Assembly (NCBI GenBank): GCA_024743315.1
Contig: JANSWU010000001.1
Coordinates: 682,001-746,000, forward strand
DNA from: Hyphomonadaceae bacterium
GTDB taxonomy: Bacteria; Pseudomonadota; Alphaproteobacteria; Caulobacterales; Hyphomonadaceae
DNA length: 64,000 nt
Reading direction: 5' to 3'
The position numbers were made by a program, and so were the translations under genes. Positions within the stretch are counted from its first letter, which is position 1, and every line of letters begins with the position of its first letter. Below, in pieces: positions 31,576-36,168 of this stretch. Under the pieces are notes generated by a model, which saw nothing but the letters and a program-made list of their open reading frames with translations, was not told where the DNA came from and searched no databases.

Positions 31576-32300
31576 TGTTTCAGGCAAGTTTCATCACGCT
31601 CTATCCGGACGCCTTTCCCGGTCCGCTCGGTGTCTCGATCCTCGACCGTGCTCAGCGCGACGGCCTATGGGCGCTGGAGACGGTCGACTTGCGAACCTTC
31701 GGTCTCGGCAAACACAGGCAAGTTGATGAAAAGCCAGCGGGCGGCGGCGCCGGACTGGTCTTGAGGCCAGATGTTGCCGCGGCTGCGATCGATTCGGTGA
31801 ATGCTGGAGATCGGCCGGTGATTTATCCAAGTCCACGCGGCATGCCTTTCACTCAATCCCTGGCGAGAGACTGGGCCGTTGGCCCGGGCCTGGTGTTTTT
31901 CTGCGGCCGCTTTGAAGGCCTCGACCAACGGGTGATCGAAAAACGCAATATGATCGAGGTGTCGCTGGGCGACTTTGTCCTTGCGGGCGGCGAAGTGGCA
32001 GCGATGGCAATGCTCGAGGCGACCTTGCGTTTGATCCCCGGTGTGGCCGGCAACCAGGCCTCGGTCGAGGACGAAAGTTTCAGTGACGGACGGCTCGAAT
32101 ATCCGCACTACACATTGCCAAGACGATGGGAAAACGAACCCACACCAGAGGTTTTGCTGTCGGGGGATCACAAAGCTGTCAAAGCCTGGAGGAATCAGCA
32201 GAGTGAGGCATTGACAAAAGCCCGCCGACCCGATTTATGGGCGGCTTCCCGAAATGGACCCAATTTGCGAGCGTCGGAGACGGACGATGAACATGATTGA
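31575..32300 (+). CDS. trmD: tRNA (guanine-N1)-methyltransferase
   Basis: Methylates G37 of tRNAs next to the anticodon to prevent frameshifting. The 241-residue SPOUT enzyme has [19 protein letters not shown] at the start, the AdoMet knot region [27 protein letters not shown], and [12 protein letters not shown]. In most bacteria it follows rpsP and rimM; here it follows a glycosylase-like gene in the aroK operon. The 3' end overlaps rplS by 14 nt. Confidence 0.97.
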
Positions 32301-32856
32301 ACAGCTCGAAGCTGAAGAAGTTGCCCGCGTCACCGCTGGCAAAACCATCCCAGAATTTTCGCCAGGCGACACGCTTTCTGTAAACGTGCGCATCAAGGAA
32401 GGCGACCGTGAGCGTGTGCAGCGCTATGAAGGCGTGTGCATTGCCCGCGCTGGCCAAGGCCTCAATGAGAACTTTACGGTGCGCAAGATCTCCTTCGGTG
32501 AGGGCGTCGAGCGGGTGTTCCCGGTCGTTTCGCCGATGATTGAAAGCATTGAAGTGAAGCGGAAGGGCCGCGTGCGCCGCGCCAAGCTATACTATCTGCG
32601 CGATCGCCGCGGTAAATCTGCCCGTATTGCTGAGCGGACGACCGGCCACGGCATGGAAACCACAGAAATCACAACCACCAAGACCGAGCTGCGCCGTCAG
32701 CGCGACGCCGCGAAAATCGCACGTCGCGAAGAGGCGGCGAAGGAGCGCGATGCAGCAGCCAAGGCGAAAGCTGCAGAAGAAGCTGCAGCCGCAGCCGCAG
32801 CAGAGGCTGAAGCGGCCGCAGCAGACGCAGCCCCGGAAGGTGACGCCGAAGCATAG
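32287..32856 (+). CDS. rplS: 50S ribosomal protein L19 with long Ala/Glu/Lys tail
   Basis: L19 lies at the subunit interface. The conserved protein is residues 1-120 ([55 protein letters not shown]). Residues 125-189 are a low-complexity tail rich in Ala, Glu, Lys and Asp ([20 protein letters not shown]), longer than in E. coli L19 (115 residues) though extended tails occur in alphaproteobacteria. ATG 32287 overlaps the trmD end. A strong terminator follows. Confidence 0.97.
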
Positions 32857-32880
32857 TTCAGCTTCTGAACCCAGATTGAA

Positions 32881-32911
32881 GAAACCCCGCACTTCGGTGT
32901 GGGGTTTTTTG
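32881..32911 (+). terminator. Rho-independent terminator of the aroK-rplS operon
   Basis: CCCCGCAC-TTCG-GTGTGGGG, an 8-bp stem (one G-T pair) with a stable TTCG loop, flanked by AAAA before and TTTTTTG after. It ends the long aroK...rplS run. Confidence 0.95.
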
Positions 32912-33159
32912 TGTTTTCAACTCCGATGCGATCATTTTCTGGAACCTTCTTAGGGATTTGGAAGCCAATTAAATCCCGCAAAACACTATGGATTTTTCTC
33001 GTATGGGGCGAATCCGTTTGGTTTGAACTGTTTCATTTCATATACGAAATGGTCGGCGCAATTTTTGCGTCGCGACTGCGGTTGTCCCGAAATGGGTCGG
33101 GCCATGGAGATCTGAGAACTCTTGTGGCGATGAGGGCCGCATTAAAGGGGAAGAGGAAT
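32912..33159. other. Non-coding leader of the repeat-protein gene
   Basis: After the L19 terminator there is an AT-richer stretch with no supported gene on either strand. It contains an 18-bp palindrome (33034-33051) and, just before the next gene, the ribosome binding site AAGAGGAA. It is the promoter and leader region of the repeat protein; no convincing -35/-10 pair could be fixed by eye. Confidence 0.5.
33034..33051. promoter_or_regulatory. Perfect palindrome, candidate operator
   Basis: CATTTC-ATATAC-GAAATG is a perfect 6+6 inverted repeat 109 nt upstream of the repeat-protein ATG in the only non-coding gap before it. Its size suits a dimeric regulator; no factor can be named. Confidence 0.3.
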
Positions 33160-34566
33160 ATGAAACTTTCAAAGTCGATTTTGATCGGCGCCGCCGCGAT
33201 CAGTCTGCTGCCAGTATCGGCCTTTGCCGATGGGGACAGCAAGAGCTGGGACGGCCAGGCGGCCGGTGAACGCTACACCGCATCCGGATCATCCACCGCA
33301 GACCGCGTCCTGACCGATGATGAGATTCGCGACATCATCACCCGCGCCGGCGCGAATGATGAAAATGCAGATGTCCGTTATCTTGGTGGCCCGGAAGCTG
33401 CGATCGAAACCACGATGTGCTGCGAGAATGTCGAAGAGCAGGTTGAGACGCGCACCGAGATTGAAGAGACCACCGAATATATCGACGCTGTCACCCGGCG
33501 TGACATCATTCAGCCGGTCCAGCGCACGCTGATCCAGCCGATCACCCGGGAAGTGCTGCAAGGCTCTGTCGAAGACATTACCGAAGATCGGGTTTATGAG
33601 ACCAATCGCCTCGACACCAGGATTGAACGCGACGATGTACCTGCCGTGGTCGAGAATTATATCCCGCAGGTCACGACCGAAAACGTCGAAGAAGTCACCG
33701 AGACTTACTATGACGTGCTGACCAGCCGCGAGATCATCCAGCCGGTAGAGCGCACGACCGTGGTGCCGGTTCAGCGCCGGATTATCCGCCCGGTCACCGA
33801 AACCGTGACGAACGAGATTCGGTATGAAACCCGCACGGCACCAGTTCAGCGTGAAACCATCGAGATCCCGGCAACGATCGAGAATGTGACGGAAGAGGTC
33901 ACGACGATCACCGAAGAGCAGCTGACCGAAAAAGTCATTCCTTACACTGCTGAGCGCAATATCTATCAACCGCGAACGATCACCACGATCCAACCGGTTG
34001 AGCGCCAGATCCTGCGTGGCACAACGGAAAGCATTACCGAGCCAACGCGGTACGAGGAAGAGCGTCTCCCGCTCCGGGTCGAAACAGAGGAAGCGCCAAA
34101 TATCGTCGAGACGATCACGCCAAAAGTGACGGAGCGGACGATTCTGGAAGTTGAAGATGTCTATATCGACAATGTCACGCGCAACGTAATCCAACCGGTC
34201 GTGGTCACCACGATCCAGCCGGTGGTCAAGGAAGTGCTGAAGGGCCGGACCGAGACCATCACCAATGCGACCCGCTACGAGACAGAAACCCTCGCGACGA
34301 TCACCGAATCCGTGATGGTGCCAGATACGGTCGTGAATTACATTCCGCAGGTCACCGAAGAGTATCAGGAAGAGTATTCTGAAACGCATTTCGAAGCGGT
34401 GACACAGCGCGATATTTATCAGCCGGTGGTACGTAAAATCATCCAGCCGATCGAAATTCGTAAGATGAACCCGAAACACGAAACCGTAACCAATCCAACA
34501 CGTTACGAAACGGTTCGGGCCAGTCTGGTGGTGCTGAATATCGGCTCACCTTGTTATTGCGACTGA
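33160..34566 (+). CDS. Secreted protein made of five 76-residue Val/Ile/Pro/Glu-rich repeats
   Basis: A 468-residue exported protein (signal peptide MKLSKSILIGAAAISLLPVS, cut near AFAD). From about residue 110 it consists of five repeats. The anchor I-[IYV]-Q-P has its Gln at 118, 194, 270, 345 and 421, and the Tyr of an [RV]YE anchor is at 146, 222, 298, 373 and 449, so the period is 75-76 residues. Each unit has a second (I/V)xP motif 8 residues after the first, then Glu/Thr-rich strands. Cysteines occur only before the array (CC at 87-88) and at the end (PCYCD). ATG 33160 has GAGG upstream. I know no bacterial family for it; function unknown, probably a periplasmic or surface structural protein. 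Confidence 0.88.
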   Translation: MKLSKSILIGAAAISLLPVSAFADGDSKSWDGQAAGERYTASGSSTADRVLTDDEIRDIITRAGANDENADVRYLGGPEAAIETTMCCENVEEQVETRTEIEETTEYIDAVTRRDIIQPVQRTLIQPITREVLQGSVEDITEDRVYETNRLDTRIERDDVPAVVENYIPQVTTENVEEVTETYYDVLTSREIIQPVERTTVVPVQRRIIRPVTETVTNEIRYETRTAPVQRETIEIPATIENVTEEVTTITEEQLTEKVIPYTAERNIYQPRTITTIQPVERQILRGTTESITEPTRYEEERLPLRVETEEAPNIVETITPKVTERTILEVEDVYIDNVTRNVIQPVVVTTIQPVVKEVLKGRTETITNATRYETETLATITESVMVPDTVVNYIPQVTEEYQEEYSETHFEAVTQRDIYQPVVRKIIQPIEIRKMNPKHETVTNPTRYETVRASLVVLNIGSPCYCD

Positions 34567-34598
34567 TTTAGTCAGGGCGTTCGCGCGCCCTGATTAAA
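34567..34598 (+). terminator. 13-bp hairpin directly after the repeat-protein stop
   Basis: TTTAGTCAGGGCG and CGCCCTGATTAAA pair over 13 bp (one G-T) with a 6-nt loop, starting 1 nt after the stop codon. The A-rich and T-rich feet make it a plausible bidirectional intrinsic terminator, although no long T-run follows. Confidence 0.65.
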
Positions 34599-34638
34599 CC
34601 CTGAGCTGGTCGCAGAACGCGGCCCGCTCATCTCTCTA

Positions 34639-34699
34639 GGCTCGCGTATTGAGCCAAATTGCTACGAGAAGGCGTTGGGGTTTTCCCCAGCGCCTTTTT
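34639..34699 (+). promoter_or_regulatory. Second hairpin pair with terminator in the leuC leader (attenuator candidate)
   Basis: GGCTC-N7-GAGCC (34639-34655) is followed by AAGGCGTTGGGG-TTTT-CCCCAGCGCCTT and TTT (34669-34699), a 12-bp GC-rich intrinsic terminator. It lies after the repeat-protein terminator and 68 nt before leuC. A terminator in this place can be a back-up terminator, the end of a small RNA, or a leucine-operon attenuator. No leader peptide with a run of Leu codons was found, so the attenuator reading is unproven. Confidence 0.5.
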
Positions 34700-34767
34700 G
34701 CTTGCTTTGACGGCTTGCCGAACGGGCATTTGCATGCTGATACACCCGGCTGGAAAGGTCGAAGAAT

Positions 34768-36168
34768 ATGCCCGGTCAAACGCTGTATGATAAAATCTGG
34801 AATCAACACGTGGTTCGCGAGGATGCCGCCACTGGTGAGGCGCTGCTCTTTATTGACCTCCATCTCATTCACGAAGTCACCACACCGCAAGCCTTTGCCG
34901 GGTTGAAAGCGGCGGGCCGCCCGGTCCGTCGGCCAGATCTGACGCTGGCGGTCGCCGATCATAATACACCGACCGAGGGCCAGGCGCGCGGTCTGGACGG
35001 GGTTCTTGATGAGGCCGCGCGCAACCAGCTTGCAGCCTTGACCCGGAACGTCGCCGAACATGGCATCGAATTCTTCCCAATGGGTCATATCAATAATGGC
35101 ATTGTCCATGTTGTTGGCCCGGAACAAGGGCGTACCCAGCCGGGCATGACAATTGTTTGCGGCGACAGCCATACCAGCACGCATGGCGCCTTTGGGGCGC
35201 TGGCGCATGGCATCGGCACGTCTGAAGTGGAGCATGTGCTGGCGACCCAGACCTTGCGGGCGCGCAAGATGAAAAACATGGCGGTGAATGTTTCCGGGCT
35301 GCTCCCCGACGGGGTCACCGCCAAGGATCTAGCGCTGCATCTGATCGCCAAGATCGGCACGGCGGGTGGCACGGGCTGTGTGATGGAATATCGCGGCGAG
35401 GCGATCCGGTCGCTGTCCATGGAAGGGCGGATGACGCTCTGCAACCTGTCCATTGAGGGCGGAGCGCGGGCAGGCCTGATCGCGCCGGATCAAACCACGT
35501 TTGACTATATGAAAGGTCGCCCGGCGAGTCCGAAAGGCGGCGCCTGGGAGATTGCTGAGCGGCATTGGCAAACTTTGTTCTCGGATGATGATGCGGTTTG
35601 GGATCATGTCATAGAGATTGAAGCGGCAGAGATTGAACCGACCGTGACCTGGGGCACCAGCCCTGAACAAGCCATCCCACTATCAGGCTCGATTCCGAAC
35701 CCAGCCACGATGAGCGACCCCGTCAAGAAAGCAGCTGCCGAACGGGCGCTTGACTATATGGGGCTTGAGGCTGGAGCAAAGCTGGCCGGGACACCGGTCC
35801 AGCGTGTGTTTATTGGATCCTGCACCAATTCCCGGATTGAGGACTTACGCACCGTTGCGGAGGTCGCGAGGACGGGCCATGTCGCTGAGGGTGTGCGGGC
35901 GATGATCGTGCCGGGCTCGGGCCTGGTGCGGGCGCAGGCTGAATCTGAGGGGCTGGATGAAGTGTTCCAGGCGGCCGGGTTTGAATGGCGCGAGCCCGGC
36001 TGTTCCATGTGCCTCGGCATGAACCCAGACATTCTGGCCCCAGGAGAGCGATGTGCTTCGACGTCCAATAGAAACTTTGAAGGCCGGCAAGGCCGCGGCG
36101 GACGAACCCATTTGATGAGCCCGCATCTCGCCGCCCGCGCTGCCATTACCGGAGTGATTGGCGGGTGA
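34768..36168 (+). CDS. leuC: 3-isopropylmalate dehydratase large subunit
   Basis: With LeuD isomerises 2- to 3-isopropylmalate in leucine synthesis. The 466-residue aconitase-type protein has [17 protein letters not shown], and the three 4Fe-4S ligands: Cys in FIGSCTNSR and two in GCSMCLGMN. The start [16 protein letters not shown] is family typical. The acetyltransferase gene starts within its stop codon (GTGA), so extra genes are coupled to it before leuD appears. Confidence 0.97.

Follow-up and report, generated by a model that had tools for sequence, protein, structure and literature searches.

The locus and its product

In a marine bacterium of the family Hyphomonadaceae, an open reading frame encoding 468 amino acids occupies positions 33160–34566 of the + strand of the window, the term used here for the whole 64,000-nucleotide stretch of DNA that was analysed. 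The frame and its start, read from the sequence, agree with the preliminary description of this DNA. The gene, found as a single copy in a search of the genome, lies downstream of rplS and upstream of leuC (trmD, rplS and leuC being named by NCBIfam). The following features have been mapped in and around it:

32879–32910, + strand: terminator-like stem 3′ of rplS, bounding the gene on its 5′ side (such sites are no more numerous than in shuffled sequence)
33036–33049, + strand: element TTTCnTATACGAAA, 124 bases 5′ of the start codon, a probable promoter/operator (leader alignment and genome searches)
33160–33228, + strand: Sec-type signal peptide, residues 1–23, cleavage AFA|DG (by eye; orthologue starts are similar)
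33229–33417, + strand: head, residues 24–86, with one predicted helix at 53–63 (model; confidence low up to residue 49)
33418–33423, + strand: CC, Cys87-Cys88, ahead of the repeats (invariant in 29/29 rows, 28 genomes)
33469–33696, + strand: repeat unit 1, residues 104–179 (this and the four rows below: self-comparison and unit alignment)
33697–33924, + strand: repeat unit 2, residues 180–255
33925–34149, + strand: repeat unit 3, residues 256–330
34150–34377, + strand: repeat unit 4, residues 331–406
34378–34551, + strand: truncated repeat unit 5 and tail, residues 407–464
34552–34560, + strand: CxC, Cys465 and Cys467, close to the C-terminus (invariant in 29/29 rows, 28 genomes)
34665–34700, + strand: terminator-like stem of 16 pairs with a T tail, in the gap between the repeat gene and leuC (number of such sites not above shuffled sequence)

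The N-terminus, MKLSKSILIGAAAISLLPVSAFA, has by eye the character of a signal peptide, and the protein is probably exported. Within rplS itself, positions 32769–32825 hold an imperfect 24-bp tandem repeat that encodes part of the Ala-rich C-terminal extension of RplS.

A diverged tandem repeat

The protein repeats with a period of 76 residues. Its mean BLOSUM62 self-score is +1.12 at lag 76, far above shuffled sequence, where the best lag between 60 and 89 never exceeded -0.05 in 500 shuffles. This bears out the period of 75–76 residues proposed initially, and the motifs behind that proposal lie exactly where they had been placed, with QP at residues 118, 194, 270, 345 and 421, and Tyr at 146, 222, 298, 373 and 449. 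Four units of the array are full-length and the fifth is cut short, at 58 residues including the tail; the five repeats first counted are thus present, but the last is incomplete. The term “near-perfect”, applied to them in the preliminary description, has to be abandoned, as pairwise identity between units of the window protein is 35–53%, and Tandem Repeats Finder gave no report within the gene.

A finer period of eight residues runs through the array (lag 8, z = 5.5; lag 16, z = 4.0; lag 4, z = 3.3), and is also seen in the mean of 18 orthologues (lag 8, z = 6.4; lag 4, z = 2.8). The lag 8 and lag 16 scores bear out the paired QP motifs, which are spaced eight residues apart. The repeats are rich in T, E, V, I and R, with V+I at 23.7% and A+G at only 3.5%, contain 6.5% Pro and much charge, and span about 360 residues that include no cysteine.

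Corresponding units are 63–71% identical across species, whereas different units are 45% identical. Recent duplication or homogenisation of the units was accordingly rejected, a given unit being closer to its counterpart in another species than to its neighbours within the protein (46%). A [1-2-3][4-5] duplication history, hinted at by lag 227 in the window protein, is not general, as no such pair stands out in 17 orthologues. The periodicity itself is retained in homologues, with one natural variant of four reshuffled units.

Relationship to described families

Neither Pfam nor NCBIfam gave a match reaching cut-off for the window protein, and searches of PDB sequences returned nothing below E 0.1. 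The 18 orthologues gave only scattered weak rows against Pfam, of which the best, Ribosomal_L9_C, had an E value of 0.0015; this row, together with WH_DRP, AceK, BlaZ and beta-lactamases, was judged to be chance because the scores, where shown, are far below cut-off and the families are mutually unrelated. Within these Pfam, NCBIfam and PDB sequence searches, the initial view is supported: a secreted repeat protein that stands alone and belongs to no described family. A narrow literature search, with subscription papers mostly outside it, found no earlier paper describing a protein of this kind in the group.

A resemblance to the alveolins had also been suggested, and of this the likeness in composition has survived. 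Epiplastins are defined by a medial domain rich in V/I and poor in A/G, forming beta-strand or random coil, and by numerous acid-base dyads (PMC6212826). The V+I and A+G contents given above agree with the first of these, as do the strands of an AlphaFold model of limited reliability; acid-base dyads number 15 in 372 residues, against 15.4 (sd 3.4) in shuffles. The articulin subclass is distinguished by a core with over three VPV modules (PMC6212826), and the repeat protein has one VPV. Alveolins and articulins are reported to have a 12-residue tandem periodicity (PMC4303705), and this is absent here, with z at lag 12 of only 0.4 for the window protein and 0.5 for the mean of 18.

The IMCp profile (PF12314) gave 0 matches in the window’s genome and none in the genomes sampled from its genus, with a positive Caulobacter control, and matched none of the 18 orthologues at E <= 1. 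Across a sample of the order it matched in 2/299 genomes, both of another family (f2). Both matching proteins, L037 and L038, begin like a signal peptide, continue with repeats rich in charge and V, and carry cysteines in the tail. Their start, together with YVDRPVEKK-type repeats and Gly/Cys-rich tails (L037:991-2184 and L038:1048-2199), gives them the look of exported rather than cytoskeletal proteins. When the repeat-protein profile was compared with L037 and L038, hhalign gave a probability of 3.7%, with the signal peptide region alone aligned. Membership of the alveolins was rejected on the negative IMCp profile, the absent 12-residue period and the lack of a profile match to these two proteins.

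Distribution and evolution

Using a profile of 18 orthologues, the gene was found in 28/105 genomes of the bacterial family, spanning 4/10 genera: 19/29 genomes of its own genus, seven in genus g3, and one each in g5 and g8. In the sample of the order, 19/299 genomes carry it, all in the same family, and a single-unit profile likewise gave 19/299; in the sample of the class the single carrier among 385 genomes is the window’s own. The single-unit profile matched 4/398 genomes of a phylum sample, three of the genus together with G743. The last was rejected as a distant member, as the match is confined to a QPV run of low complexity, the protein being different in all other respects and resembling HemX. 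A search for plasmid carriage gave no match at E 1e-5.

The order trmD, rplS, repeat gene, leuC is found in the window and in 10/10 carrier loci examined in the genus. RplS is present in each of ten non-carriers of the genus, and leuC follows without the repeat gene in seven; in the other three (G028, G024 and G015) the stretch or contig ends ahead of leuC. The rplS–leuC gap (32857–34767 in the window; L080-L088 and L091) is variable in the genus, holding the repeat gene, another gene or just a short gap: a methyltransferase-like ORF occupies it in G007, and an AraC-type regulator comes next after rplS in G024. A tree of TrmD and RplS, covering 11 of the 19 carriers and ten non-carriers of the genus with five other genomes of the family, places the losses in five near relatives of the window that form a clade, in three small genomes that group together, and in two singles. 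On this tree, in which some nodes are weak, the gene has apparently been lost several times within the genus.

In two g3 genomes the gene has a different location, 3′ of ahpC-ahpF and in the same orientation, with an extra ORF between them in one. A LysR gene resembling OxyR was named beyond the ahpCF locus in one of the two, scoring 215 bits against the OxyR model, below the cut-off of 329. This neighbourhood gives a weak hint of a redox link, and is not kept in the window’s genus. In a Hyphomonas MAG, none of trmD, rplS and leuC lies within the stretch examined around the gene.

Values of dN/dS were 0.07–0.27 in 7/8 window–orthologue pairs, one pair being saturated, and 0.04 for L002 versus L003; the values are rough, with synonymous sites near saturation in the window pairs. 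On these ratios the gene is under purifying selection. The repeat protein is real, selected and restricted to one lineage.

Invariant cysteines and a four-unit variant

All 29 rows from the 28 carrier genomes have CC immediately ahead of the repeats and CxC immediately behind them, with no cysteine between. In 26 rows no mature cysteine exists beyond those four; L007 and its duplicate L111 have a fifth in the tail, and that of L114 is probably within the signal peptide. CC, repeats and CxC in succession make a simple signature that can be used to annotate this lineage-restricted family.

Every carrier examined has five units except one. The G018 protein has four, scoring as a 1/3 hybrid, 4, 2 and 5, with the head and both cysteine ends unchanged. 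Its middle units are thus reshuffled and one is missing while the ends are kept, which is what a spacer whose function lies in its ends would show.

The upstream element and leader

The 14-bp element TTTCnTATACGAAA occurs 70–126 bases 5′ of the start codon, with at most two substitutions, in 16/18 leaders. In 8/18 it is a perfect palindrome, TTTCGTATACGAAA (n = G); the window copy is imperfect. Ten whole genomes were searched for the exact pattern, which was found in five, at one place in each and always before the repeat-protein gene. Seven of the ten are carriers, of which five have the exact site, G025 has a variant and G030 (genus g3) has none; the element is absent from the three non-carriers. 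In the window, TATACG inside the element sits by eye 17 bases past TTGGTT, and may be a -10 element inside an operator.

The gene had been credited with its own promoter region and terminator. A scan for consensus sigma-70 promoters around the gene found 0, against a shuffle mean of 1.2, and the two terminator-like stems flanking it match the number in shuffles (mean 2.3); the conserved palindrome at 33036–33049 is better evidence that the gene has a promoter region to itself.

Directly 3′ of the element, the window has a small hairpin at 33055–33071. Minimum-energy folds were made for 17 of the 18 leaders, leaving out the one without the palindrome, and by our own count 11/17 have a hairpin just past the palindrome, its sequence differing between leaders. 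Leader stability reached z <= -2 in only 4/17, one of which, L027, does so at another place, and the window’s leader as a whole does not exceed shuffles in stability (z -0.73). Rfam gave nothing at gathering score across 32200–35200.

Predicted structure

AlphaFold2, run with 18 sequences, gave a full model with a mean pLDDT of 74 and a pTM of 0.30, in which five strands of 53–59 residues are each followed by two short strands. For a three-unit fragment the mean pLDDT was 57, most of unit 2 fell under 50, and the pattern of strands changed. The long-strand topology was dropped as evidence of fold, since the fragment did not reproduce it. Of the beta-rich rod first envisaged, the beta-rich character is supported as predicted secondary structure and the rod itself is conjectural; the repeats are probably beta-rich.

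When this weak model was compared with the PDB by Foldseek, nothing reached E <= 0.001. FapC fills the first two ranks and a CsgA the fourth (E 0.036, 0.14 and 0.52; TM-scores <= 0.07, probability <= 0.03), and even the best row, at E 0.036, has TM-scores of 0.03/0.07.

Possible functions

Tentatively, the likeliest reading is that of a beta-rich spacer that is exported and linked through disulfides at its two ends, with a fibre or spacer role. Sec export would be followed by oxidation of the cysteines, the end disulfides would link chains in series or to a partner, and the repeats would serve as the extended spacer of a periplasmic or surface fibre or mesh. Disulfide-joined ends are proposed because the ends are constant, and the middle is diverged, reshuffled and cysteine-free. 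The invariant CC and CxC, the conservation of corresponding units across species, purifying selection, the reshuffled middle of the G018 protein, the composition and the predicted strands all favour this spacer, and the ahpCF neighbourhood in g3 adds its weak hint. The sequences also show an upstream element belonging to the gene and a tolerance of loss. The low pTM, the long strands that the fragment did not reproduce and the lack of a Foldseek match weigh against it. If the strands formed an antiparallel meander, the four-unit variant would put both cysteine ends on one side, and so would be unsuited to a head-to-tail polymer.

A rather less probable alternative is a non-covalent surface or matrix repeat protein, similar to an adhesin, in which the cysteines merely staple the ends of the array. 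The signal peptide, the diverged tandem repeats, the acidic Thr/Val-rich composition, and the patchy presence and repeated loss in the genus would all suit such a protein; however, profiles find no anchor or adhesin domain, and many adhesins vary more in unit number than this protein, which deviates from five units in a single examined carrier.

The cysteines themselves are fitted just as well by intramolecular disulfides or metal binding. It is unlikely that the protein is an exported monomer in which CC and CxC form a metal site or intramolecular disulfides, for example a periplasmic metal/redox scavenger or sensor. The four invariant cysteines, and the nearby ahpCF and OxyR-like LysR gene in g3, are in its favour, but more than 360 residues of conserved repeats separate the cysteine pairs, unit number varies in one genome, and in the window’s genus the neighbours are instead trmD, rplS and leuC in each of the carrier loci examined.

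The bolder form of the spacer reading is similarly improbable. It would make the protein the founder of an undescribed bacterial class, of exported beta-repeat rods with a cysteine pair at either end, linked covalently by disulfides into a fibre or mesh beyond the inner membrane, convergent with the cysteine-capped filaments of alveolins. A true disulfide-joined exported filament would be a bacterial fibre perhaps needing one gene alone, and would provide a test case for the independent origin of cysteine-capped beta-repeat filaments in bacteria and protists. If the fibre reading is false, a clean lineage-restricted protein family still stands.

A functional amyloid-like fibre subunit is very unlikely. 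FapC and CsgA are among the top Foldseek ranks, and the imperfect repeats are of regular length, but the E values and TM-scores, from a weak model, amount to no match, the Pro and charge of the repeats speak against it, and the named neighbouring genes are not amyloid secretion genes. Least credible is that this bacterial protein truly belongs to the alveolin/articulin (IMCp) family. Its composition and its two cysteine-bearing ends would fit, but the IMCp profile is negative, the 12-residue period is missing, VPV occurs once, and L037 and L038 gave no profile match.

Comparison with known systems

OspA and the G5-E repeats of SasG form single-layer beta-sheet or fibrous surface repeats, with beta-rich spacers. 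These can be set beside the repeat protein as beta-rich repeats that act as spacers, and are absent from the PDB sequence and Foldseek rows.

Nearer in taxonomy are articulin-like proteins reported from Caulobacter (PMC4303705, PMC6212826). These articulin- or epiplastin-like proteins are bacterial and of the same order, and L037 and L038 share the signal-peptide-like start, the V-rich, charged repeats and the tail cysteines of the protein described here, but differ from it in their short YVDRPVEKK-type motifs and Gly/Cys-rich tail.

The alveolins themselves (PF12314) share with it a repeat core rich in V/I/E/P and poor in A/G. They differ in having a 12-residue period rather than periods of 76 and 8, and in the Sec signal peptide seen here by eye, which argues for export as opposed to a cortical cytoskeletal location. 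In Plasmodium IMC1a, conserved cysteine motifs near both termini are reported to affect its stability (PMC5223771). The alveolin motifs described there combine a single and a double cysteine, in contrast to the CC and CxC of the repeat protein, and the likeness between cysteine motifs at both ends is one of analogy, not homology.
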